Part shown: piece by piece, positions 19,452 to 32,107 of the stretch
Position numbering within the stretch: position 1 is the stretch's first letter
How the letters are laid out: every line of letters starts with the position of its first letter
Origin: Eubacterium sp.
Lineage (GTDB): Bacteria > Bacillota > Clostridia > Oscillospirales > Acutalibacteraceae
DNA length: 43,630 nt
Assembly: GCA_017458975.1 (NCBI GenBank)
Contig: JAFSZK010000018.1
Coordinates: forward strand, 1 to 43,630
Direction of reading: 5' to 3'
Translations under genes and position numbers: made by a program
The notes under the pieces: generated by a model
What the model was told of the DNA's origin: nothing
The model's input: the letters and a program-made list of their open reading frames with translations, nothing else
Database searches by the model: none

Positions 19452-21893
19452 ATGGCTTATAAAATACATATTGCATACGGCTTTCACGTAAACTGCTACC
19501 ACTCCTACAGGGGAGACACTAATGACGCGCATGGCTTCGGCTCGGATATTCGTATTATACGAAAAATCATCTCAACTCTTGACGCGCTCAACAAGGAGGG
19601 CATTCCCGTAAAGGGAACATGGGACAGCGAAAATTTCTTTTCCCTTGAAAAAATCCTGCCCGAATATGCGCCCGATATAATTGAGGGTATGAAGCGCAGG
19701 GTTAAAGAATACGGCGATGAAAACATAATTATGGGCTACACAAACGGAGCTCTCGGAGCAATGGAAAAGGACGAGCTTTGCGCTTCGATTAATCTCGCTG
19801 TAAGTAATCCTCAGGGCTCCGGCCTGAAGGACATTTTCGGCGAGTGCGAAATGATAGTACGACCGCAGGAGGTTATGTTTTCTCCCTCTCAGGTAAATAC
19901 ATATAACAAACTCGGAGTAAAAGCGCTTTGTCTTTATTATTCCTGCGTACCCTTTGACGCGTTCAAAACCCTGATTCCGCTTCTTGACGACGAAAAGGCG
20001 TTTAATCCTCTCACCTTTGAATATAAAGGAGAGGGACTGACCGTTATTCCGACCTATTCAAACGCCGACGTTTGTGATGCAGGTTGTCTGAGAGCATGGG
20101 TAAAGGATTTACATTTAAAGCAGGAAAGCGGTGAAATAAAGCGGGATTTATTCCTCTTTATCAATATGGACGCCGACGCAATTTTCTGGGAAAGTCTTGA
20201 CCTTCCGATAATAGGAAACCGCCTTGCCAATACCGACGGCATACACGGATTGGTAAAAGAGGTGGGCGACCTTGATTACGTTGCTTTTGACACGCCCGGA
20301 GGATATCTTAAAACCCATAAGCCCGTCGGAACAATCGCATTTACGCAGGACACTGCCGACGGTAATTTTACGGGCTACGCGTCCTGGGCGGAAAAGCCGT
20401 ACAACCGAAAAATCTGGACGGCTATTGAACGCAGCCGTACTGCAGGCAGGGTTATGAATAACGGAGATGACTTTCTTAACAGGGTCAAACTCCTTTCGAC
20501 AACCCATTTCGGGCTGGCTACTCCGGTTCTCAACATTCAGCGCGAGGAAGCGGCAAACGCTCTTGCCAAAAGGCTTAATGACTCCGCCTGCATTAAAGAC
20601 GGTGCGCTCACGCTTAAAAATACGGCAAAAAGCAATATCCTCTGCGTGCAGCTTGCGTGCGCTTCGGCTTCAGGGGTTAAAATTGAAGCAAAGGGACTTG
20701 AAGCGCAAACCGTAATACCCGTCGACGATAACAGCGTTTTTGTAATTCTGAAATTCAGTGAAATCAAGGACGAATACAAAATCACAGCCAAGGAAGCCGA
20801 ATATGATAATAAGTCGCTTTCGCTTACTCTTGAAAGCGGAAAAACAAAGCTTTCGTTTTCGGACAATATGAAAATCAAATGGCTTACCCATAACGAAAAA
20901 AATATCGGCGGCGAGGAGTTCATTTCTTCATATCTTACATATAACTCAACGCGGTATGATTTTAAATGCGAAAGCCTTGAAAAGGGCAAAATAATCGGCG
21001 GTGAATGTATTGAGCTCAGCGGAATAATTAACATTCCCGAAGCGCTTAAACAGGGTCGTTTCTCTTATCGCTTTTTTACCTCAGAGGTAATGCGCGGTAT
21101 ATTCGTTATTACCGACGTTGATTATCCTTATACCCCGGAGCGCGACTCAATTTCAACCGAAAATTCAACCCTCGGAAGATATACCGATATGAAATGGCAG
21201 GAAGCTGTACCGTTTGAGCTGAACTTCAACAACAGCAAAGGCGTTTCGGTAATAAAGCGAAACTTTGAGGGGGATATTTCTGTTTTTGACACCGCATCAT
21301 ACGGTGAAGCTGACGAGAAAAACCGAACCCTTGATTCTTTTAACAATCAGCTGTCTGCCGGCTTTATAGGACTTACCGACGGCGAAACGGGTCTTGCCGT
21401 TGCCAATGCGAGGAACGTGCTTTCGTCGATGGCATACTGTCCGATGAGACTCAAAGCAGACGGCAGCGTAAGTATGAACCCGTTTGGTACATATTTCGGA
21501 AAGCAGCGCCATCATCTGAATCGTTCAAACGACAGGATTCCCCGGACATATACTCTTATTGCGCCTCAAGGTAAAAGCCTTGCGCCTTCGTATAACGGAA
21601 GCCGTGAGAGAGCCGTTTTGTGTTTAATGCCGTTTGAGGGCAGTATGATTGAACGCAAAAACCTGTCGGAACTTCTGGCCTTTTCTGACGGAGCATTTGC
21701 GCTTGGCAACGACGGACCTCTTTCGCCGTTTAACGGTGAAAATGTTTTTATTCACTCGGTGGATAACAAACTCGAAAACGTAAAAGTTCGTTCGCCCCTT
21801 ATGAGCGGAATTAAAGGAAATGTCGGTAAATATATAGTTCGCGCAACAAAAGCAATTTCATATATTATCAGACGTCAGAAAAACGCAAAATAA
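19452..21893 (+). CDS. large GH38/GH57-like putative glycoside hydrolase
   Basis: An 813-residue protein without a signal peptide. The N-terminal 370 residues look like the (beta/alpha)7 deacetylase-like fold shared by GH38 and GH57: a HVN motif near residue 17, GTWDSENFFSLEK, VRPQEVMFSPSQ, and an INMDADAIFW strand end carrying acidic residues. The rest is mostly beta-strand, as in GH38 C-terminal regions. I infer a glycosidase, possibly mannosidase-like, but catalytic residues are not assigned. GGAGGT precedes ATG 19452. It is divergent from GH31 and probably part of the same glycan programme. Confidence 0.6.
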   Translation: MAYKIHIAYGFHVNCYHSYRGDTNDAHGFGSDIRIIRKIISTLDALNKEGIPVKGTWDSENFFSLEKILPEYAPDIIEGMKRRVKEYGDENIIMGYTNGALGAMEKDELCASINLAVSNPQGSGLKDIFGECEMIVRPQEVMFSPSQVNTYNKLGVKALCLYYSCVPFDAFKTLIPLLDDEKAFNPLTFEYKGEGLTVIPTYSNADVCDAGCLRAWVKDLHLKQESGEIKRDLFLFINMDADAIFWESLDLPIIGNRLANTDGIHGLVKEVGDLDYVAFDTPGGYLKTHKPVGTIAFTQDTADGNFTGYASWAEKPYNRKIWTAIERSRTAGRVMNNGDDFLNRVKLLSTTHFGLATPVLNIQREEAANALAKRLNDSACIKDGALTLKNTAKSNILCVQLACASASGVKIEAKGLEAQTVIPVDDNSVFVILKFSEIKDEYKITAKEAEYDNKSLSLTLESGKTKLSFSDNMKIKWLTHNEKNIGGEEFISSYLTYNSTRYDFKCESLEKGKIIGGECIELSGIINIPEALKQGRFSYRFFTSEVMRGIFVITDVDYPYTPERDSISTENSTLGRYTDMKWQEAVPFELNFNNSKGVSVIKRNFEGDISVFDTASYGEADEKNRTLDSFNNQLSAGFIGLTDGETGLAVANARNVLSSMAYCPMRLKADGSVSMNPFGTYFGKQRHHLNRSNDRIPRTYTLIAPQGKSLAPSYNGSRERAVLCLMPFEGSMIERKNLSELLAFSDGAFALGNDGPLSPFNGENVFIHSVDNKLENVKVRSPLMSGIKGNVGKYIVRATKAISYIIRRQKNAK

Positions 21894-21934: not shown

Positions 21935-21969
21935 TATTTTATAACTGTGTGAAAAAGAGGCAAGCATTT

Positions 21970-23265
21970 ATGAAGCAAAATCCCGACAGCTATCTGCTTT
22001 ATGAGTCAGGTAAATTTATTACATATAATATACGCCTTAAATGCGTAATGAAAAACAGGGTTGACGCCGAAGCGCTGAATAAGGCGGCGCAGATTGCCTT
22101 TAAGCGTTTTCCCTACTACGCAAAAGAGGTTAATATTCTTCCTAATGGCGAAATAGAGTTCAGGCATAACAGCCGTCCGCTTTATGTAGGACCCGAGGGC
22201 AACAGACACGTCCGCTTCGCAACAAAGGAAGTTAACTATCATCTTTGCAGCATCAGCTATAAGGAAAATATTATTTATTTTAATATGCACCACGGTCTTT
22301 GCGGAGGCTGTGGAATGATGTTCTGGGTAAAGAGCACGCTGTGGCATTATGTTAAAGAGGCCTTCGGCGTTGAGCTTGAAAAAGGAAACATCAAAACCGC
22401 CGACACTCCTTTAACAGAGGGCGAAACCGCATTTCCCGACCCGGAAGCTCTTGAGGACGCGGAGCCTTTGGGCAAGATTAATACCGATACCGTTTACGTT
22501 CCTGCTCTCGATTATGCAAGACACGCGGTAATCGCCCCCGGAAAAGCGCTTAAATACTATGAGCTTGAAATTGAAGCAAACGACTTTATGAAATATGCAA
22601 GAAGCAACGACGGAAGTCCTAACTCCATTCTTGCTTCTCTGATGTTCAGAGCAGTCTGCAAGGTAACTTCGCCAAAGGTTGCAAAGGCGATAAGAGGAAA
22701 TATCCTTTGTAATTACCGCGCTGACGTAGGATGTCCCGAAACCTATCACGATATGGTTCGGTTAATGTCGGTTTACTATCCGCGCGAGAAGCTTGAAAAC
22801 AAGGATATCGAATATCTGAGCACGGTAACAAGAAGCGTTATGTATATGCAGATGCAGCCCGAATACAGCGTTAAAACCTTTAAGGCTGCATGTGAGTCAA
22901 AAGAGGGTATTGACCGACAAAACGGATTTTTGAACAAGAGAGTTTATGCGATGACTCACTCACCGTATACAAAACCGCCCTTCGGAACGTTTCTTATAAG
23001 TTATGTAGGGCGTGAAGACTGGTACGGACTGGAGAACTATATTGAGCGAACCCACTGTATTACAGACGGTCATTTAATGGTAGAGGTTAACGCTTTGCGG
23101 GATAAGTTTTTCATTACCTTTATGGAGCTTAATTCGCGTCATAAATTTTACGATGCATTCTGTGAAGCAATGAGGGAGGAAAACATCCACTTTACGGAGC
23201 ACGGCGGATATGAGCGCAAGCTTCCGTTTTCAATCTATCCCAAAAAAAGCAAGGGATACTTATAA
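21970..23265 (+). CDS. condensation-domain-like acyltransferase
   Basis: A 431-residue protein resembling the chloramphenicol-acetyltransferase/condensation superfamily, in the branch often labelled alcohol acetyltransferase. The site normally read HHxxxDG is H107-H108-GLC-GG here: the two His are kept and the Asp is Gly. A sheet-rich C-terminal half follows (TFLISYVGR). It may transfer acyl groups from CoA to an alcohol or sugar; the acceptor is unknown. ATG 21970 follows AAAGAGGCAAG; an earlier GTG lies before that site. It has its own promoter. Confidence 0.6.
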   Translation: MKQNPDSYLLYESGKFITYNIRLKCVMKNRVDAEALNKAAQIAFKRFPYYAKEVNILPNGEIEFRHNSRPLYVGPEGNRHVRFATKEVNYHLCSISYKENIIYFNMHHGLCGGCGMMFWVKSTLWHYVKEAFGVELEKGNIKTADTPLTEGETAFPDPEALEDAEPLGKINTDTVYVPALDYARHAVIAPGKALKYYELEIEANDFMKYARSNDGSPNSILASLMFRAVCKVTSPKVAKAIRGNILCNYRADVGCPETYHDMVRLMSVYYPREKLENKDIEYLSTVTRSVMYMQMQPEYSVKTFKAACESKEGIDRQNGFLNKRVYAMTHSPYTKPPFGTFLISYVGREDWYGLENYIERTHCITDGHLMVEVNALRDKFFITFMELNSRHKFYDAFCEAMREENIHFTEHGGYERKLPFSIYPKKSKGYL

Positions 23266-23676: not shown

Positions 23677-23704
23677 TTGCCTTTTGGCGGGAGTTTGATA
23701 TAAT
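23677..23704 (+). promoter_or_regulatory. promoter for the GTPase-NYN fusion
   Basis: TTGCCT at 23677-23682, 16-base spacer, perfect TATAAT at 23699-23704. Confidence 0.6.
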
Positions 23705-23732: not shown

Positions 23733-26306
23733 ATGAAGAAAATAACCGTCGGCGTGCTTGCGCATGTTGACTCGGGAAAAACTACGCTTTCGGAAGCGAT
23801 GCTCTATATTTCGGGTAATATTTCAAAGCTCGGGCGTGTTGACCGCGGCGACTCTTTTCTTGATACCTTCTCCCTTGAGCGCGAAAGAGGAATTACTATT
23901 TTCTCAAAACAGGCGGTGCTGAATTACGGCGATACCGAATTTACGCTTCTTGACACGCCGGGGCATGTTGATTTTTCCGCTGAAACCGAGCGCACGCTCC
24001 AGGTGCTTGACTATGCCATTCTTGTTATAAGCGGCGCAAGCGGAATTCAGAGCCATACAAGAACGCTTTGGGAGCTGCTTAAAAAATACCGCGTTCCCTG
24101 TTTTATATTTGTAAACAAAATGGACCTCGATTCGGCGAACAAGGAGCTGATAATGAGCGCTCTAAAAGAAAAGCTCAGCGACGGCTGCGTCGATTTTTCC
24201 TGTGAAAAGGCGGAGCTTGACGAGAGCCTTGCGCTTTGCAGCGAGGAGCTTTTATCAAAGTATACCGAAAACGAAAGGCTTGACAAAAGGGATGTATTAA
24301 AAGCAATTAAGACGCGTGCCGCCTTCCCGTGCTTTTTCGGTTCGGCTTTGAAATTAAAAGGCGTTGAGGAGCTTCTTGAAGGCCTTTGTAAATATACCGA
24401 AGCCCCCGAATATAAAGATACCTTCGGCGCAAGAGTTTATAAGATTTCCGAGGACTATCAGGGCGCTCGTCTTACTCATATGAAGATTACGGGCGGCGCG
24501 CTCAGGGTAAGGGATATCCTTGAAAGTAAAAGGAATATTAACGCAGAAAAGGTAAACCAAATAAGGATTTATTCAGGAGAAAAGTTCACCTCTGAAAACG
24601 AGGTTAAAGCGGGAACAATTTGTGCGGTTACGGGCATTACCTTTGCAAAAACCGGAGACGGTCTCGGCTTTGAAAACGACGGTGAGCTGCCCGTTTTAGA
24701 GCCTGTTTTAACCTATTCGGTTAATATTCTTGACTCTGCTGACGCACATACCGTTTTGAAAAACATGAAAACCCTTGAGGACGAGGACCCGACTTTGAAG
24801 GTTGTATGGAACGAAAGACTCGGCGAAATTCAGCTTCAGCTTATGGGCGAAATACAGCTTGAGGTACTGCGTGCGCTTATGAAGGAGCGCTTCAAAAATG
24901 AGGTCGATTTCGGCAAGGGTAATATAATTTACAAGGAAACTATTGAGAGCACCGCAGAGGGAGTCGGACATTTCGAGCCGCTTCGTCATTATGCCGAGGT
25001 ACACCTCGTATTGAAGCCCGGAAAGCGCGACAGCGGACTTGTCTTTAAAAGCGACTGCAAGGAGGACCTGCTCGATAAGAACTGGCAAAGATTAATACTT
25101 ACCCATCTTTATGAAAAAACGCATATCGGCGTTCTTACGGGTTCGCCGATTACTGATATGGAAATATCGCTCGCCTCGGGCAGGGCACATCCCAAGCACA
25201 CCGAGGGCGGCGATTTCCGCCAGGCAACCTACCGTGCGGTAAGGCACGCCTTACGCTCGGCAAAATGCGTTTTGCTTGAGCCGGTTTACAAATTCACCCT
25301 TGAAATACCAAGCGAGAACACGGGCAGGGCGATTGCCGATATTCAGCGTATGTCGGGCTCCTTTGAGCAACCCGAAACGAGGGGAGAATTTACCGTTTTA
25401 ACGGGTTGCGCCCCCGTATCGGAAATATGTGATTATTCTACCGAGGTTATGCAATATACTCACGGACTCGGCAAGCTTTCCTGTGTTTTAAAGGGCTATG
25501 AAAAATGCCACAATGCCGAGGAGGTTATTCAGAAAATCGGATATAATCCCGACGCGGATATTGAAAACACAGCCGATTCGGTTTTCTGTTCTCACGGTGC
25601 GGGATACAACGTTAGGTGGGACGAGGTTAAAAGCCATATGCATCTTCAAAGCGCGCTTTCAGCGCCTAAGAACAGCTTTGCCCCCAAAGAGAAAAAATCC
25701 GTTTCCTCCTTTAAAAATAAAGACGACCTCTTTGCACTTGACAAGGAGCTTATGCAGATTTTTGAGAACACGTACGGACCGATAAAAAACCGAAGCAATC
25801 CCGCCGAGGCGCATTTCAACCTTACCGAAAAGTCAAAAACGCCGAAAGAAAAAATATACAAGCCGAAATATGACGGGGACGAATACCTACTTGTTGACGG
25901 ATATAACGTTATTTACTCTTGGGAGCATTTAAGAAAGCTCGGCGAGGATAATATTGAGGGCGCAAGAAACACGCTTATCAATATTTTGTGTAACTATCAG
26001 GGCTATAAAAAATGTGAGGTTATTCTTGTGTTTGACGCTTATAAGGTTAAGGGTGAACGCGAGGTTGAAAGAATAGATAATATAAATATTGTATATACAA
26101 AGGAAGCGGAAACGGCGGATATGTATATTGAAAAGACCTCGCATAAGCTTGCAAAAAACAACAAGGTGCGCGTTGTGACCTCGGACGCGCTCGAGCAGCT
26201 TATTATCCTCGGCGGAGGTGCGCTTCGCGTGTCCTCGCGTGAATTTCTTGAAGAGGTAAAACGAGCCGAGGAAGAAATAAGACGATATATTAACGAAATA
26301 AAATAA
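23733..26306 (+). CDS. TetM-like ribosomal GTPase fused to a Rae1/YacP-type NYN nuclease
   Basis: An 857-residue two-part protein. Residues 1 to about 650 form an EF-G/TetM-type translation GTPase: P-loop AHVDSGKTT (10-18), RGITI switch, DTPGH, NKMD, and a SAL motif, followed by EF-G-like domains with SGRAHPKHTEGGDFRQATYRA and a SHGAGYNVRWDEV element. A Lys-rich linker (about 650-715) joins to residues 716-857, an NYN domain like Bacillus Rae1 (YacP): LLVDGYNVIYSW with Asp722, VFDAYK, ETADMY, VVTSDALEQ and GALRVSSREF. Rae1 cuts mRNA in the ribosomal A site and TetM-like proteins bind that site, so the fusion may deliver a nuclease to stalled or drug-bound ribosomes. TetM is about 640 residues, so the extra domain is not part of the usual protein. 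GGGGTGAGG precedes ATG 23733. Confidence 0.85.
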   Translation: MKKITVGVLAHVDSGKTTLSEAMLYISGNISKLGRVDRGDSFLDTFSLERERGITIFSKQAVLNYGDTEFTLLDTPGHVDFSAETERTLQVLDYAILVISGASGIQSHTRTLWELLKKYRVPCFIFVNKMDLDSANKELIMSALKEKLSDGCVDFSCEKAELDESLALCSEELLSKYTENERLDKRDVLKAIKTRAAFPCFFGSALKLKGVEELLEGLCKYTEAPEYKDTFGARVYKISEDYQGARLTHMKITGGALRVRDILESKRNINAEKVNQIRIYSGEKFTSENEVKAGTICAVTGITFAKTGDGLGFENDGELPVLEPVLTYSVNILDSADAHTVLKNMKTLEDEDPTLKVVWNERLGEIQLQLMGEIQLEVLRALMKERFKNEVDFGKGNIIYKETIESTAEGVGHFEPLRHYAEVHLVLKPGKRDSGLVFKSDCKEDLLDKNWQRLILTHLYEKTHIGVLTGSPITDMEISLASGRAHPKHTEGGDFRQATYRAVRHALRSAKCVLLEPVYKFTLEIPSENTGRAIADIQRMSGSFEQPETRGEFTVLTGCAPVSEICDYSTEVMQYTHGLGKLSCVLKGYEKCHNAEEVIQKIGYNPDADIENTADSVFCSHGAGYNVRWDEVKSHMHLQSALSAPKNSFAPKEKKSVSSFKNKDDLFALDKELMQIFENTYGPIKNRSNPAEAHFNLTEKSKTPKEKIYKPKYDGDEYLLVDGYNVIYSWEHLRKLGEDNIEGARNTLINILCNYQGYKKCEVILVFDAYKVKGEREVERIDNINIVYTKEAETADMYIEKTSHKLAKNNKVRVVTSDALEQLIILGGGALRVSSREFLEEVKRAEEEIRRYINEIK

Positions 26307-26368: not shown

Positions 26369-27352
26369 ATGGACCCGAATAAAAGACCCGAAACTATGGA
26401 AAGAATTACAACTCCCGAGCTTGCAAATGCCTTTATTGACGAGCAGATTGCGGCTCTTAAGAATCAGATTGGCGACAAGAAGGTGCTTCTTGCGCTTTCA
26501 GGCGGCGTTGACTCGTCGGTTGTTGCCGCGCTCCTTATCAAAGCTATCGGAAAACAGCTTGTCTGCGTTCACGTAAACCACGGCTTACTCCGTAAGGGAG
26601 AGCCCGAGCAGGTTATTGAGGTGTTCAGAAATCAGATGGACGCCAACCTTGTCTATGTTGACGCCGTTGACCGTTTTCTTGACAAGCTTGCAGGCGTTGC
26701 GGAGCCCGAGAAGAAGAGAAAGATAATAGGCGCGGAATTTATAAGAGTATTTGAAGAGGAAGCAAGAAAGCTTGACGGAATTGAGTTCCTTGCCCAGGGT
26801 ACAATTTATCCCGATATTCTTGAATCCGACGACGGCGTTAAGGCCCACCATAACGTAGGCGGACTTCCCGAGGACTTACAGTTTGAGCTCGTTGAGCCCG
26901 TTAAGCTCCTCTATAAGGACGAGGTAAGAGTTGTCGGCAAGGCGCTCGGACTTCCCGATAATATGGTTTACCGCCAGCCCTTCCCGGGTCCCGGACTCGG
27001 CGTAAGATGCCTTGGCGCTATCACCCGTGACAGACTTGAAGCGGTAAGAGAGAGCGACGCTATTTTAAGAGAAGAATTTGCAAAGAACGGTCTTGAGGGC
27101 AAGGTATGGCAATACTTTACCGCGATTCCCGATTTCAAGGGAGTCGGCATTAAGGACGGAAAGAGAACCTTTGCTTACCCCGTAATTATCAGAGCGGTAA
27201 ATACAAAAGACGCTATTACCGCAACGGTTGAAAACGTACCGTTCGTTCTCCTTGAGCATATAACAAACCGAATCACAAACGAGGTTGAAAACGTAAACCG
27301 CGTCCTCTTTGACCTTACGCCGAAACCGTCTGCCACAATCGAGTGGGAATAA
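26369..27352 (+). CDS. guaA: GMP synthase ATP-pyrophosphatase subunit (no glutaminase domain)
   Basis: A 327-residue protein matching only the C-terminal two thirds of canonical GMP synthase (about 510-520 residues). The PP-loop LALSGGVDSSV adenylates XMP; HVNHGLLRKGE and PFPGPGLGVR are diagnostic, and the dimerisation tail ends ATIEWE. The glutamine amidotransferase domain is absent, so ammonia must come from a separate subunit or free ammonia, as in the archaeal two-subunit type. AAAAGGAGATACGATT precedes ATG 26369. Its last codons contain GAGTGGGA, the integration site of the mobile element that follows; the stop is intact, so the gene remains functional. Confidence 0.9.
   Translation: MDPNKRPETMERITTPELANAFIDEQIAALKNQIGDKKVLLALSGGVDSSVVAALLIKAIGKQLVCVHVNHGLLRKGEPEQVIEVFRNQMDANLVYVDAVDRFLDKLAGVAEPEKKRKIIGAEFIRVFEEEARKLDGIEFLAQGTIYPDILESDDGVKAHHNVGGLPEDLQFELVEPVKLLYKDEVRVVGKALGLPDNMVYRQPFPGPGLGVRCLGAITRDRLEAVRESDAILREEFAKNGLEGKVWQYFTAIPDFKGVGIKDGKRTFAYPVIIRAVNTKDAITATVENVPFVLLEHITNRITNEVENVNRVLFDLTPKPSATIEWE
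27341..27348 (+). other. left attachment core (attL) in the guaA 3' end
   Basis: GAGTGGGA lies in the last codons of guaA. An identical octamer occurs at 33287-33294 after the integrase, mobilisation and cargo genes. The 3' end of guaA is a known genomic-island insertion site. Confidence 0.65.
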
Positions 27353-27500: not shown

Positions 27501-28022
27501 TTATTTCTTTTTCTTATGATTCTTATTGTACTCTGCAACAAGCATATCGCTGAGCTCTTGACTCGGTTTGATTTCCACAAAGCGCGTCGGGTAGTTGTAA
27601 CGCCAGTTGTCATATTGGATTTCGTCAATCTTGCCATCCTTCAACTTTTCCTTCATTTCGTTCCATTCATTAAGACGGGAGAAAAGATTGGTAAAGCATT
27701 CCGGTCTGCTTTCGTCTGCTACAAGGCAGAGCTTGCCGCCTATTCTGTCAATCGTTAATCCGTATATATCCTCAATCGCAAATAGGGTATGCATTAAGCG
27801 GTTGTATGTATCAAGATTGGGGTTATCAAGCGCGTCGGTGGATACGCCCAAAATCTTGGCGATTTCCTCAAGGACATCCTCTCTCGGTTCTCTTCTTCCG
27901 TTTTCATATTGCGCAATACGGGAATCGGCGTTCTTCTCGCCGAAGCCGAGCACCGTACCAACATATTTCTGCGTCATATTACGCTTTTTTCTGATAAATC
28001 GTATTCTTTCGCTAATAGCCAT
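27501..28022 (-). CDS. XRE-family repressor of the mobile element
   Basis: A 173-residue DNA-binding protein. Residues 1-60 form an XRE helix-turn-helix (RIRFIRKKRNMTQKYVG ... SRIAQYENGRREP); the rest is an unassigned helical region ending in KKKK. It faces the excisionase/integrase operon across a 295-base divergent region holding a 24-bp palindrome and related half-sites, so it probably represses excision and its own promoter. Translation starts after GAGGTGAACAAAA. Confidence 0.85.
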   Translation of the reverse strand: MAISERIRFIRKKRNMTQKYVGTVLGFGEKNADSRIAQYENGRREPREDVLEEIAKILGVSTDALDNPNLDTYNRLMHTLFAIEDIYGLTIDRIGGKLCLVADESRPECFTNLFSRLNEWNEMKEKLKDGKIDEIQYDNWRYNYPTRFVEIKPSQELSDMLVAEYNKNHKKKK

Positions 28023-28041
28023 TTTTGTTCACCTCGTCATT

Positions 28042-28070
28042 ACTGTATCATATTTGTTACGATATGTCAA
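28042..28070 (-). promoter_or_regulatory. repressor promoter with operator half-site
   Basis: Minus strand TTGACA (28070-28065), 17-base spacer, TACAGT (28047-28042). CGTAACA, the half-site of the large palindrome at 28132, sits in the spacer, suggesting autoregulation. Confidence 0.65.
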
Positions 28071-28099
28071 TAAGTTTATCAAAAATGTTAAGAAAACGC

Positions 28100-28128
28100 T
28101 TGACAAAGAAAATAATGTATGCTAATAT
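28100..28128 (+). promoter_or_regulatory. promoter of the excisionase-integrase-mob operon
   Basis: TTGACA at 28100-28105, 17-base spacer, TAATAT at 28123-28128. The start point lies inside the operator palindrome. Confidence 0.7.
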
Positions 28129-28131
28129 AAA

Positions 28132-28155
28132 AACCGTAACATATATGTTACGGTT
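28132..28155. promoter_or_regulatory. 24-bp perfect palindromic operator
   Basis: Half-site AACCGTAACATA is followed directly by its exact reverse complement. It covers the predicted start of rightward transcription. A related CGTAACA half-site lies in the leftward promoter at 28055-28061. It is the likely binding site of the XRE repressor. Confidence 0.6.
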
Positions 28156-28317
28156 ATAGCGAAACTATAACAAAAAGAGTAAAACTAAATGACCGGCTGG
28201 ATTAACAACTGCGCCACGACCTGTAAAATGCAGCGAGCGAGACAACACCGCTAGAGAGGGGTGGACTTAATTTGGGTAGACCGGCAAACTGAAAAAAACT
28301 TGAAAGGAGGCGATGCG
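28156..28317 (+). other. untranslated leader before the excisionase gene
   Basis: A stretch of about 160 bases between the operator and the excisionase start, with GC-rich blocks (ACCGGCTGG, GCGCCACGACC, AGACCGGC) unlike the AT-rich flanks. There is no convincing ORF and only short hairpins (CACC/GGTG around 28245-28263). It could be a structured leader or carry integrase sites. Confidence 0.3.
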
Positions 28318-28509
28318 ATGGACAATAGCACTATCTTCATGAGAGTTGATGAGGTTGCCGCAGTGCTGGGTGTTTCAGAGTCATATGCGTATAAGATAAT
28401 GAAACAATTAAACAACGAGCTTGCCGAAAAAGGAAAGATTGTTGTAGCCGGCAGAGTGAACCGAAAATACTTTTATGAAAGACTTGACTACGAAGGAGGT
28501 GAAAAATAA
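28318..28509 (+). CDS. excisionase-like helix-turn-helix protein
   Basis: A 63-residue protein of the HTH_17/excisionase type (FMRVDEVAAVLGVSESYAYK, then a wing with GRVNRKYFYERL). It probably directs the integrase toward excision. ATG 28318 is chosen since AAAGGAGG lies nine bases ahead. Its stop overlaps the integrase start by one base (TAATG), so the two are coupled. Confidence 0.8.
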   Translation: MDNSTIFMRVDEVAAVLGVSESYAYKIMKQLNNELAEKGKIVVAGRVNRKYFYERLDYEGGEK

Positions 28510-29585
28510 TGCCTGTGTACAAGGACGCAAAGACAAACACCTGGCGAGCCATATTCCGATACACTGATTGGACGGGCGAACGCAAGCAAACGCAAAAGCG
28601 AGGCTTTCCTACTCAGCGCGACGCAAAGGCGTGGGAACGCGAGCAGTTAATCAAACTGCATGGAGCCTGCAATATGACTATGAATTCCTTTGTGGATTTG
28701 TATTTTGAAGGAATCAGCGGGAGACTGAAACTCAATACCGTTAACAGCAAAAAGCATATCATTAAAACAAAAATCCTGCCTTATTTCGGAGAGAAAAGAA
28801 TCAACGAAATCAAAGCGACTGATATTATCGCTTGGCAGAATGAATTGATGAATATGAAGGACGAGAACGGAAAGCCGTTTTCTCAAACCTATCTGAAAAC
28901 AATCCATAATCAAATCAGCGCGATTCTGAATTACGCTGTGAAGTATTACGGACTGAAAGAGAACCCGGCAAGGAAAGCCGGAGCGATGGGCAAAAAGGAG
29001 AGCGACAGAGAAATGCAAATCTGGACGAAGGAACAGTACAAAAAGTTTTCGGAAGTGATGATGGAATCGCCTATGCACTACTACGCATTTGAAATGCTCT
29101 ACTGGTGCGGAATCCGTGAAGGCGAGCTACTGGCGCTGACTCCCTCTGACTTTGATTTCAAACGGCAGACGGTAAGAATCAACAAGAGTTATCAGCGGAT
29201 TGACGGTAAGGATGTGATTACCGAGCCGAAAACGCAGAAGAGTATCAGAACGATACGGCTGCCAAAGTTTCTCTGCGATGAGATGATGGACTACCTTGCG
29301 ATGCTCTATGGAGTAGAGAGCGACGACAGAATGTTTCCTCTTTCAAAGAGTGCGCTATACCGAGCAATGAGAGAAGGCAGCAGAAAGGCGGGCGTTCCGA
29401 AAATCAGGATTCATGATTTAAGACACTCGCATGTCTCGCTACTCATCAATATGGGTTTCTCCGCAGTAGAGATTGCCGACAGGTTAGGACACGAAAGCAT
29501 AGAGATAACTTACCACTATGCTCACATGTTTCCGTCACGGCAGGACGAGATGGCAGACAAGCTCGAGTTAGAAAGGAGTGCTTAG
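28509..29585 (+). CDS. tyrosine recombinase (integrase)
   Basis: A 358-residue site-specific recombinase. The N-terminus is an arm-binding AP2-like three-strand fold (VYKDAKTNTWRAIFRYTDW). A SAM-like core-binding domain follows, then the catalytic domain with Arg in GIREGELLAL, HDLRHSH, GHESIEITYHYAH and the nucleophile Tyr. All catalytic residues seem present, so it is probably active. It should act at the GAGTGGGA core in guaA. It sits in an operon with the excisionase upstream and mobC one base downstream. Confidence 0.95.
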   Translation: MPVYKDAKTNTWRAIFRYTDWTGERKQTQKRGFPTQRDAKAWEREQLIKLHGACNMTMNSFVDLYFEGISGRLKLNTVNSKKHIIKTKILPYFGEKRINEIKATDIIAWQNELMNMKDENGKPFSQTYLKTIHNQISAILNYAVKYYGLKENPARKAGAMGKKESDREMQIWTKEQYKKFSEVMMESPMHYYAFEMLYWCGIREGELLALTPSDFDFKRQTVRINKSYQRIDGKDVITEPKTQKSIRTIRLPKFLCDEMMDYLAMLYGVESDDRMFPLSKSALYRAMREGSRKAGVPKIRIHDLRHSHVSLLINMGFSAVEIADRLGHESIEITYHYAHMFPSRQDEMADKLELERSA

Positions 29586-29586
29586 T

Positions 29587-29922
29587 ATGTCTGAAAAGAA
29601 TTATGACCGTAAAGGAAGATGGCGAAGCAAAACGGTAGCGTTTCGTATGTCGCCGAAGGAGAATGAAGAGCTGGACGTCCGAGTAAAACTCTCAGGGTTA
29701 ACCAAGCAGGAATACCTCATCAGCCGTGCTCTTGAAAAGGAGATAATTGTACAAGGTAATCCGAGGGTGTATATCGCCCTGAAGCGACAGCTTGAAGAAG
29801 TGCTGCAAGAGTTGAAAGCATTGCAGGGTGAAACACCCTCCGAAGAATTGCTTGACATTATCTGTTTAATTAACCGAACCCTTTACGGAATGAAAGGCGA
29901 AAAAGAAAATGACTGTCCTTGA
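29587..29922 (+). CDS. MobC-like relaxosome accessory protein
   Basis: A 111-residue protein like plasmid mobilisation MobC. It starts with a basic RKGRWRSKTVAFRMSP ribbon and an ENEELDVRVKLSGLTKQEY helix region resembling ribbon-helix-helix DNA binding, then a helical end. It would help the relaxase open oriT. GAAAGGAGTG precedes ATG 29587, just after the integrase stop. A hairpin (29913-29949) overlaps its stop. Confidence 0.8.
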   Translation: MSEKNYDRKGRWRSKTVAFRMSPKENEELDVRVKLSGLTKQEYLISRALEKEIIVQGNPRVYIALKRQLEEVLQELKALQGETPSEELLDIICLINRTLYGMKGEKENDCP

Positions 29923-29949
29923 TGTATCTGTTGGCGCAGATACGGACAG
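29913..29949 (+). other. hairpin overlapping the mobC stop
   Basis: CTGTCC (29913-29918) pairs with 29944-29949 and GTATCTG (29924-29930) with 29937-29943. There is no T run, so it is more likely an oriT-side structure or RNA-stability hairpin than a terminator. Confidence 0.4.
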
Positions 29950-30012
29950 CCATGCTATGTATAGCAATCATAGTATAAACAATCTTTTCGCCGATGTCAA
30001 ATCAATAATACG

Positions 30013-30132
30013 GTTGTCTTTGTAAGTTCGAGTTGTCTTTGCCTCGCCAGAGCGCAATGCACTTTTGATACGTAAGTGTCAAAAGTGCCATTGCGTTACT
30101 CTTGGCAAGAGTAACAGAACCGAGAAATCTCG
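30013..30132 (+). other. putative oriT with direct and inverted repeats
   Basis: Immediately upstream of the relaxase gene lie two GTTGTCTTTG repeats (30013-30022, 30032-30041). A 16/17-bp imperfect inverted repeat follows (30053-30068 with 30079-30095), with loop TACGTAAGTG. Then come a perfect 9-bp hairpin (30095-30115) and a CGAGA/TCTCG hairpin (30121-30132). The position and the repeat-then-hairpin order match origins of transfer of MobV relaxases. The nick site is not identified. Confidence 0.5.
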
Positions 30133-30177
30133 AATTTTACGAAGACAAATTAAAACTATGAAAGACAGGTGAAAAAT

Positions 30178-31047
30178 ATGTATTTATCTAGTATCAGCAT
30201 TGAACTCGGCAAGGGCGTTTTGAAGCATAACAACCGAAAATTTATTGCCGATAATGTTGACAGAGAACGAACAAAAAACAATGTGGAATACAAAAATATT
30301 CCTCTCGAAGAAGCCTATCATATCCTCTTTGATGAAGCATTAGAGAGATACAATAATAAGCAAAAAAGAGCTGATAGGAAGATTAATAATTACCTTGAAC
30401 ACATTCAAAAAAGCAAACAGGAAAAGCCCTTTTACGAGATAATCGTGCAGGTTGGTAACCGTGATGATATGGGTATAGGTACCCCAAACGAAGCCGTTGC
30501 TAAACGAATTTTAGAGGACTATTTACGACGGTTTGAGGAACGAAATCCAAACCTGTTCGTTTTTAATGAAGTACTCCATATGGATGAAGCAACACCCCAT
30601 TTGCACATTGATTTTATCCCGTACACTACCCGAAGCACCCGTGGTTTAGATACCCGTGTATCTATGAAAAAGGCGCTGGAGGAGCAAGGATTTGTCGGTT
30701 CCGGCAGGAGTGATACGGAAACAATGGCATGGCTGCAATCCGAAAAAGAAGCGCTAAGTTATGCTATGCAATGGCATGGCGTTGAGTGGGAGAATCAAGG
30801 AAACAACCGCGAGCACCTTTCCGTGTTGGAGTACAAAAAGGAACAGCGAAGCAAGGAATTAGCCGAGCTCGAAGGCAAGGTTGAGGAACTAAAAGAGACT
30901 GCTGACAACCTTGAAAAAACGATTGAAACGGTAATGGTATTATCAACCGATGAGGAGTTCGAAAAAGAATATACACTCCCCGAACCGCAGAAATTGGAGT
31001 CGGCAAAGAGTTACAAAAATCGTATTATTCTGCGAGAGGAGATATAA
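30178..31047 (+). pseudogene. MobV-type relaxase, C-terminally truncated
   Basis: The remaining 289 residues resemble the Pre/Mob family: an N-terminal YLSSISIEL start and the metal-binding HMDEATPHLHIDFIPY motif near residue 140. Family members are usually 400-500 residues, and this one stops soon after a coiled-coil-like stretch. Its last ten or so codons are the antisense of a response-regulator gene, showing a deletion fusion. The catalytic N-domain is intact, so it may still nick. ATG 30178 follows ACAGGTGAAAA. Confidence 0.75.
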
Positions 31048-31161
31048 TGCTTCAGTGCCTGAATAAGCACGAAGAACGGAATATCCTTCAGTAGTCAGCA
31101 TTTCCGTTAACATATCTCCGATATAAATATCATCATCTATAATTGCAATTGTTTTTTTCAT
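31027..31161 (-). pseudogene. response regulator N-terminal fragment
   Basis: About 45 residues starting MKKTIAIIDDDIYIGDMLTE and continuing to YLLSQN match the receiver domain start of an OmpR-type regulator, including the acidic DDD cluster. The frame then runs into unrelated sequence at the relaxase 3' end. The phosphorylated Asp and the DNA-binding half are gone. It is a remnant of a lost regulatory or resistance module. Confidence 0.7.
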
Positions 31162-31168
31162 AATTGTA

Positions 31169-32107
31169 TTAGAAAGTTCTCCAACAGTTCGTTTTTATAA
31201 AATTATAAATTTCGCCGTTATCTTTATCCTCATAATAAGAAACCAAAAGTCTTTTGAATTCCGGCACATCATCTTCAGGTATAGCAATAAATCCTTCTCC
31301 TTTAGAAATCAGATAATGGTTGGCAAAAATAACTGCTGCACGCTTGTTGCCGTCGTTGAAGATTTGTGTTTTCATTGTATAAAGGCATAACGAAATTGCA
31401 TTATCAATCGGTTCAGCGTTATTGTTGACGATTTCATCAATGTTTTCCATAACAATTGTTTCAATGGGAAGCGGCGGAATATAGCTAGTTCCGCCAATGG
31501 TTACGGGCACACCTCTGATTCTTCCTCCTTCGTTGTAAAAGCCTTCATTCACGAGCTTGGCAATGTGGCAGAGAATATGGTAATTGCTTTCACATTGAAT
31601 TACATCGTTGTCGAGGATAAATTCCCAAGCGTGTTTGAGGTTTAGTATTTTTTGCACATCAGAAGCAGTGACTCCGTTAACTTTTCCGTTGTCAATTATT
31701 TCTTCGGTTTGAGGAAAAGAGGTTGCCACGCCCTCTAAAACCGCCTGCGAGTAAATATTGGCTTTCATATTTGCTCTTGCAAAATCAAGATTGAGAATTA
31801 CTCTTTCGGGAAGTTCATCTGACGAAAAACCTAATTCAGCCAACAATTTGTCAGCTTTGCGTATACTTTTGCGTAATTCCTTTGCCTCTCTGTTACTGCG
31901 GAGCAACAGTTGATACAGCTCATCGGAATATATATCAACATAGGTTGATGTGACTCTGCTGCCAACTCTCTTTCTGACATAAAGGTATTTTTTACCATTG
32001 ACCTCTTTAATCTCCGGTGTACCGTCATAAGCAATTAGTTTTAATCTTGCCTGATAGTCCGCTTTTTCTCTAAGCAATTCCTGAATTGTTTCAAAATTGT
32101 TTTCCAT
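31169..32107 (-). CDS. Fic-domain protein with Gln in place of catalytic His
   Basis: A 312-residue protein. The Fic core motif, normally HxFxDGNKR, reads Q248-IFNDGNKRAA: phosphate-binding residues are kept but the His that activates the target hydroxyl is Gln (codon CAA, one base from His). An EG pair (Glu125-Gly126, SQAVLEG) resembles the inhibitory helix motif, but the usual Ser four residues before Glu is Gln. So AMP transfer is doubtful; another activity or nucleotide sensing is possible. AAGGAG precedes the ATG. The promoter is covered by a palindrome, suggesting tight or self-regulated expression. It is mobile-element cargo. Confidence 0.85.
   Translation of the reverse strand: MENNFETIQELLREKADYQARLKLIAYDGTPEIKEVNGKKYLYVRKRVGSRVTSTYVDIYSDELYQLLLRSNREAKELRKSIRKADKLLAELGFSSDELPERVILNLDFARANMKANIYSQAVLEGVATSFPQTEEIIDNGKVNGVTASDVQKILNLKHAWEFILDNDVIQCESNYHILCHIAKLVNEGFYNEGGRIRGVPVTIGGTSYIPPLPIETIVMENIDEIVNNNAEPIDNAISLCLYTMKTQIFNDGNKRAAVIFANHYLISKGEGFIAIPEDDVPEFKRLLVSYYEDKDNGEIYNFIKTNCWRTF

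Follow-up and report, generated by a model that had tools for sequence, protein, structure and literature searches.

A translational GTPase fused to a Rae1-type NYN nuclease domain alternates with standalone Rae1 in Clostridia

We analysed a 43,630-nucleotide stretch of DNA from Eubacterium sp. (Acutalibacteraceae; contig JAFSZK010000018.1 of assembly GCA_017458975.1), here called the window, in which one gene encodes a translational GTPase joined through a linker to a nuclease domain of the Rae1/YacP type (Table 1). Pfam recognizes GTP_EFTU at residues 4-222 (171 bits), followed by EF-G domains III, IV and V, and these domains together with the structure model establish an EF-G-like five-domain GTPase fold. 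The G motifs are intact: AHVDSGKTT (10-18), T55, DTPGH (74-78), NKMD (128-131) and SAL (204-206). At residues 719-855 the protein matches Pfam NYN_YacP (PF05991) with 168 bits against a cut-off of 24.6, and this half matches B. subtilis YacP/Rae1 (5mq8/5mq9) over 139 residues at E 4e-28. The signature LLVDGYNVIYSW occupies residues 719-730, with Asp722 as the first acidic residue. A chimeric assembly is ruled out, as both halves are found in 120 of 120 relatives among the matches listed (7995 scored; the window's protein included). The fused GTPase-Rae1 architecture, which the initial annotation had read from the sequence, is real.

Conservation was counted in 61 aligned fused proteins including the window's, to which the other members are 44-73% identical. 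Sixteen of the 18 G-motif positions counted are invariant, and the other two are A10 (in 59 proteins) and S204 (in 58); D74 to H78, N128, K129 and D131 occur in 61 of 61, and the DTPGH histidine is intact. The acidic nuclease residues are likewise kept in the homologues, in 60 or 61 of the 61. Neither outcome that the initial annotation had named as refuting it, a missing NYN match or lost acidic residues, was thus seen. All four (D722, D768, D796 and D818) align with the same residues of Rae1, and we take such conserved NYN residues to have an active-site role, presumably including the ones that are catalytic in Rae1. The window's NYN domain, 141 residues from its start, ends near Rae1 residue 142 and has no C-terminal tail. 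NYN lengths of at most 147 residues occur in 15 of 43 fused proteins versus 0 of 34 standalone ones.

Between the two halves lie an extension of the GTPase and a linker. In the AlphaFold model, the block at residues 601-640 of the extension has predicted local distance difference test (pLDDT) values of 79-84, and the linker helix at 666-681 is of low confidence. The extension is present in fused proteins and in unfused members of the same GTPase clade, and absent from four Tet and seven EF-G proteins. A zinc site in it is ruled out, since H621 is a lysine in several unfused clade members. By eye, a linker motif of the type ELxxIFxxTYG can be made out in every fused sequence compared (29/29). 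The 16 unfused proteins all stop short of it, soon after the extension, and lack an NYN domain. Lying in an otherwise disordered linker, this conserved motif is a possible docking helix for the NYN domain or the ribosome. Foldseek and VIA searches, with 50 matches listed for each, returned EF-G, EF-2, spliceosomal and other translational GTPase chains, with TetM at ranks 45 and 50 of the VIA matches; these matches added nothing new on the extension or the NYN domain.

Table 1. Features of the fusion gene and its upstream region (positions in the window).
Feature	Position	Strand	Remark
GTPase-NYN fusion gene	23733..26306	+	857 aa and a stop codon; starts at ATG
EF-G/Tet-fold translational GTPase, residues 1-591	23733..25505	+	
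First loop of domain IV tip (HFEPLRHYAEVH; residues 413-424)	24969..25004	+	H419, E422 in 0/4 Tet and 0/7 EF-G
Domain IV tip, loop III, residues 483-495 (GRAHPKHTEGGDF)	25179..25217	+	H489, T490 in 0/4 Tet and 0/7 EF-G
GTPase C-terminal extension, residues 592-645	25506..25667	+	from alignments; folded in model
Disordered linker, residues 646-716	25668..25880	+	pLDDT <50 at 646-672 and 680-712
Linear motif within linker, residues 666-684 (ELMQIFENTYGPIK type)	25728..25784	+	predicted helix 666-681
Rae1/YacP-type NYN domain, residues 717-857	25881..26303	+	matches to Pfam and B. subtilis Rae1
Asp722 codon, invariant acidic residue	25896..25898	+	61/61
Asp768 codon, invariant acidic residue	26034..26036	+	61/61
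Asp796 codon, invariant acidic residue	26118..26120	+	61/61
Asp818 codon, nearly invariant acidic residue	26184..26186	+	60/61
Promoter-like site TTGCCT-16-TATAAT	23677..23704	+	consensus scan; weak on its own

In Tet proteins and EF-G, it is the tip of domain IV that extends into the A site. We compared it in 36 fused and 16 unfused clade members, four Tet proteins (M/O/S/W) and seven EF-G proteins. We found that H419, E422, H489 and T490 are present in 36/36 fused and 16/16 unfused members and in 0/4 Tet and 0/7 EF-G proteins. Other tip positions are held in common with one group or the other: E415, P416 and D494 with Tet, H486 with EF-G. Loop III reads GRAHxKHTEGGDF in the clade versus GLYYSPVSTPADF in Tet(M/O/S/W) and mostly GSYHDVDSSEMAF in EF-G. 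The first loop, HFEPLRHYAEVH, is two residues shorter than that of Tet and four shorter than that of EF-G. The Tet tip loop YYSPVST, present in 4/4 Tet proteins, occurs in 0/36 fused and 0/16 unfused members. Family models gave a similar picture: the window's protein scores 437.9 bits against a cut-off of 775 for NCBIfam tet_protect (NF012153) and 329.5 bits against 659.4 for EF-G (TIGR00484), and across two fused and four unfused proteins the tet_protect scores are 381-456 bits, below the cut-off for 6/6. Identity to Tet(M/W/S/O) is 28-30%.

A tree of 69 GTPases places the fused proteins together with the unfused ones in a single clade (100 by the Shimodaira-Hasegawa-like approximate likelihood ratio test, SH-aLRT) beside Tet(M/O/S/W) and one Paenibacillus protein; Tet(Q), Tet B(P) and Otr(A) were left out of the tree and compared, if at all, through NCBIfam scores. 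Within the clade, 36 fused and four unfused proteins lie on one side (98) and twelve unfused ones on the other (93). The four unfused copies on the fused side come from Bifidobacterium (two), Collinsella and a Ligilactobacillus plasmid (L088, L092, L094 and L055; L, G and f numbers here are our own labels for loci, genomes and families). These copies were probably transferred and then lost the NYN domain (support 92), judging from their nested placement. When plasmids were searched with an unfused member, 38 records matched at 1e-100, and Clostridium was not among their sources. In a tree of 78 NYN domains, 43 fused ones and a single standalone one lie on one side (95), opposite 33 standalone ones that include B. 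subtilis Rae1 (95). The genome G209 encodes a fused-type NYN domain as a separate gene, and its GTPase groups with unfused proteins of family f38 (95). In G209, then, a fused gene has not simply been split in two, the NYN domain being of the fused type and the GTPase of another clade.

The names that relatives carry vary (TetM/TetW/TetO/TetS family, NYN domain-containing, small GTP-binding, and translation factor GTPase family), and most relatives among the matches listed carry none. Some are thus filed as tetracycline-type, as had been anticipated. One carrier of the fusion is the gut bacterium Monoglobus pectinilyticus (L054). The fusion also occurs on two unverified faecal phage scaffolds, MT835563 (55% identity) and MT835514 (50%), which are perhaps bacterial sequence.

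We surveyed 393 genomes of the class Clostridia, each at least 90% complete, and typed NYN reading frames by their open length, with 780 aa or more counted as fused-length and 230 aa or less as standalone. A YacP-type NYN domain was found in 250 of the 393 genomes: 128 have a fused-length frame, 112 a standalone frame, nine a frame in between, and one (G261) a 27-aa scrap at a contig end. A GTPase match was present in all 128 genomes with fused-length frames and in 7 of the 9 with in-between frames. Conversely, of the 126 fused-length GTPase matches listed, 124 come from genomes that also have a fused-length NYN frame; the exceptions, G062 and G190, have broken frames. An intact fused copy and an intact standalone copy were found together in one genome of the 250, G284. 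Were the two forms independent, about 39 genomes would be expected to carry both (from 136 fused and 112 standalone), a number that is a yardstick only and not a test, as the genomes are related. Further NYN matches occur in five genomes: they are intact in G284, decayed pieces in G370, and weak and below the Pfam cut-off in G120, G174 and G208. Similarly, in a second draw of 398 genomes of the phylum, some of them also in the first, 219 had an NYN domain, 217 by a single match. The window's own genome (90% complete) has one YacP-type NYN domain, the fused one. By sequence comparison, genomes with an NYN domain nearly always have a single one.

Four families (f22, f23, f27 and f47) contain both fusion and standalone genomes. 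In their eight standalone-only genomes (G094, G206, G048, G072, G095, G117, G051 and G245), a GTPase match at E 1e-70 was absent, with three candidates scored per genome. We also checked for EF-G domain IV: seven of these genomes (G245 excluded) have two EF-G-type proteins only; among six fusion genomes the count is three in five of them and two in the sixth, the incomplete genome of the window. A recent import of standalone rae1 into f22, f23 and f27 is ruled out, because rlmB and/or sigH adjoin the gene there as they do elsewhere.

Standalone rae1 usually lies in a cluster of cysS, mrnC, rlmB, rae1, sigH and EF-Tu. The RlmB, SigH and CysS labels are confirmed by NCBIfam; the genes labelled MrnC and EF-Tu we take to be such from sequence and order. 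In 15 of 16 standalone loci rlmB and/or sigH adjoin rae1, both of them in 10; the sixteenth locus is the fused-type NYN gene of G209, which is located elsewhere. We looked up rlmB in 24 genomes, 23 with the fusion plus G209, and found it near sigH in 11, all of them fusion carriers. In these 11 genomes, the slot between rlmB and sigH holds an intact rae1 in one (G284), relics in five and nothing in five. The relics (best E 4e-17 to 4e-5) are rae1 pieces in different frames in G370 and G022, and single pieces of 39-52 residues (E 4e-8 to 4e-5) in G097, G116 and G136, those of G116 and G136 being short and weak. In the slots of G120, G018, G017, G371 and G085, where the gaps are 26-175 bases, there was no rae1 match at E 0.01. 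In 10 of the 11 slots, then, rae1 is decayed or absent. Taken together, the slots run from a redundant rae1 via decaying ones to its loss, which is what one would expect if a separate rae1 had become superfluous through the fusion. Beside rlmB of the window's genome there was no Rae1 match, and the fusion gene is located elsewhere.

Passages in three papers (PMC6613710, PMC10100781, PMC12320835) describe B. subtilis Rae1 as a translation-dependent endonuclease that cuts mRNA in the A site of paused ribosomes. Because the fused and standalone forms are nearly exclusive, the slot rae1 decays, and the GTPase has a domain IV tip of its own, we favour, as the probable reading, that the fusion is its lineage's Rae1: the GTPase would bring the protein onto a paused ribosome, where the NYN domain tethered to it would cleave the mRNA in or close to the A site. 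That the fusion does the mRNA-cutting job of Rae1 rather than conferring tetracycline resistance is, by the same comparisons, likely. A fold of this kind, with unbroken G motifs and the DTPGH histidine conserved, makes docking at the factor site likely. There the GTPase would bind with domain IV pointing to the A site, and the NYN domain would reach the mRNA via the linker of about 70 residues, probably after the GTPase has shifted or departed, because the two halves cannot occupy the A site simultaneously. GTP hydrolysis may set the order and timing of docking and cutting. The GTPase may also replace the role of the Rae1 C-terminal tail that the window's NYN domain lacks; according to a passage in PMC6613710, a change in that tail, R166P, was recovered in B. 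subtilis among suppressors that behave as loss of function. We offer a bolder version tentatively, as a possibility on which we would not rely: that the fusion is a machine for mRNA decay built on one chain and timed by GTP, and the first case of a translational GTPase that bears an mRNA nuclease of its own. Its domain IV would read the paused A site, and its GTP hydrolysis would yield that site to the tethered NYN domain, which would cut the codon there. Such a machine would have displaced the GTP-independent Rae1 repeatedly across Clostridia, with some of its members filed as tetracycline-resistance proteins.

Several observations weigh against the fusion being its lineage's Rae1. No NYN domain was found in 143 of the 393 genomes, and its job is therefore dispensable. 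Of the 19 genomes listed with an unfused-length GTPase, 4 (G068, G288, G178 and G028) lack any NYN domain, and these, with the nested transferred copies, indicate that the GTPase is of some use by itself. G209 keeps the NYN domain with its own GTPase half gone, and G284 keeps an intact standalone rae1 beside the fusion. Thirteen of the 24 slots, that of the window's genome included, were unreadable, with sigH not found in the flank (1.5 kb or less). The AlphaFold model (predicted template modelling score 0.57; linker pLDDT <50) gives no fixed placement of the NYN domain on the GTPase, so that cooperation of the two halves is unsupported by structure. Our trees were quick SH-aLRT trees without bootstrap, and in a repeat with two long rows removed and G209 added, support for the unfused group was 62, not 93. 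Finally, the literature searched contained no experiment on the fused protein, and no drug assay was found.

Other explanations share some of this evidence. A drug protection protein with an added RNase, whose GTPase would dislodge tetracycline or another drug and whose NYN domain would aid it by cleaving RNA, has been proposed in print, in passages of Atkinson 2015 (PMC4342817). The fold, which is that of Tet(M/O/S/W), the sister-clade position, and the TetM/TetW/TetO/TetS family name on relative P0003 and on 15 of the 16 unfused Ligilactobacillus copies listed would all suit it. However, the low identity to Tet proteins, the six sub-cut-off tet_protect scores and the replacement of Tet loop III in all 52 clade members compared are hard to square with this proposal, and resistance would leave the near-exclusivity with a housekeeping rae1 unexplained; we regard it as improbable. 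The tetracycline reading is weakened at the level of sequence. In this respect the initial annotation fared unevenly: its expectation of a job probably unlike that of the tetracycline type agrees with the tip, the scores and the alternation with rae1, but the TetM-like function it gave the GTPase is contradicted by the separate clade and the different tip, and docking on drug-bound ribosomes was not borne out by this analysis.

It is also conceivable, though we think it rather unlikely, that the chain combines two jobs, the GTPase acting as a translation factor in its own right (for example, in clearing or rescuing paused ribosomes) and merely tethering an NYN domain that cleaves independently of GTP. 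Unfused clade members with and without an NYN domain elsewhere in the genome, the absence of the NYN domain from Actinomycetota and Ligilactobacillus copies nested in the fused clade, the NYN domain kept in G209 without its GTPase and the flexibility of the linker would all fit such an arrangement. It accounts less well for the fact that 128 of 393 genomes, from many families, keep the halves joined, and the conservation of the linker motif in 29/29 fused sequences suggests that the NYN domain is more than tethered. We consider it very improbable that the substrate of the NYN half is rRNA or tRNA, matured or degraded by it, instead of mRNA. Such a role was the first guess for YacP-like NYN domains (cited in passages of PMC4342817), and the rRNA methylase gene rlmB does adjoin standalone rae1; against it stand the mRNA endonuclease activity reported for B. 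subtilis Rae1 in the three papers cited above and the rarity with which fused and standalone forms occur together.

The fusion is encoded in 128/393 sampled genomes of the class, about one in three. If it is indeed the Rae1 of its lineage, ribosome-coupled mRNA cleavage would have come under the control of a GTPase in much of Clostridia. The targeting of a Rae1-type nuclease to paused ribosomes would then be directly testable, with docking half, linker and blade on one chain, and the separated halves that occur naturally would serve as controls. In addition, the tetracycline-resistance names on some relatives could inflate resistance counts.

The surroundings of the gene agree with the earlier description of it as standing alone: no neighbour family recurs in more than 6 of 31 fused loci, and gene order is thereby ruled out as a functional clue. 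Its reported promoter has a counterpart in the upstream site of Table 1, which matches the consensus at 10 of 12 positions and is followed after about 25 nt by the ATG; this site is weak alone, because the scan found 7 such sites versus 4.5 +/- 2.3 in shuffled sequences. If that site is the promoter, the short distance to the ATG rules out a tet(M)-style drug-responsive leader. The earlier term "self-contained system" holds for a stand-alone gene but says too little, as the fusion seems to replace a separate rae1. The two open reading frames upstream, at 19452-21893 (813 aa) and 21949-23265 (438 aa), have no Pfam match at E 1e-5. Downstream, the gene at 26369-27352 encodes a second copy, of 327 aa, of the PPase domain of GMP synthase; it scores above the NCBIfam GuaA cut-off and has no glutaminase domain. 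The GuaA glutaminase domain is found in a 509-aa frame on another contig of this genome. Directly after the copy, 27501-32107 encodes a helix-turn-helix protein, a phage-type integrase, a Mob_Pre relaxase and a Fic protein, a set that resembles an integrative element lying at the guaA copy's 3' end. The only other protein with EF-G domain IV in the window's assembly (L002, on G000:C103) has the degenerate motifs GHAGKGKTT, DTPGLFDF and TSKMD, and a canonical EF-G seems to be missing from this 90% complete genome.

Compared with known systems, the fusion resembles Rae1/YacP (5mq8, 5mq9) in its NYN_YacP domain, its acidic residues and its occurrence as one copy per genome in nearly all cases. 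Rae1, however, is a small standalone protein of about 170 residues with a tail, encoded mostly next to rlmB and/or sigH, whereas the NYN domain of the fusion sits behind a GTPase, is tail-less in the window's protein, and is encoded at an unrelated locus. EF-G has the same fold and G motifs but differs by the tip GSYHDVDSSEMAF, the longer first loop and the absence of the extension. The unfused relatives of about 650 residues, from Clostridiaceae-like genomes, Bifidobacterium, Collinsella, Ligilactobacillus and Neobacillus, belong to the same clade and have the same tip and extension, but lack the linker motif and the NYN domain; one is named at NCBI as a translation factor GTPase family protein, and we know of no function for them. 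Tet(M/O/S/W), the sister clade, share the five-domain EF-G-like GTPase fold, and the fusion differs from them in its domain IV tip, C-terminal extension, NYN domain and sub-cut-off score. Clostridial Tet proteins with a YacP-like NYN domain are described for ten species in passages of Atkinson 2015 (PMC4342817), the only paper on the fusion in the literature searched, although papers on Rae1 or its distribution may mention it. Their architecture is identical, and they were read there as a possible new resistance mechanism, with an RNase-based one guessed; in contrast, the fusion described here alternates with rae1 and lacks the Tet domain IV tip. The architecture is therefore already in print, and, relative to those passages, the alternation with rae1, the rae1 relics and the distinct domain IV tip are what this analysis adds.

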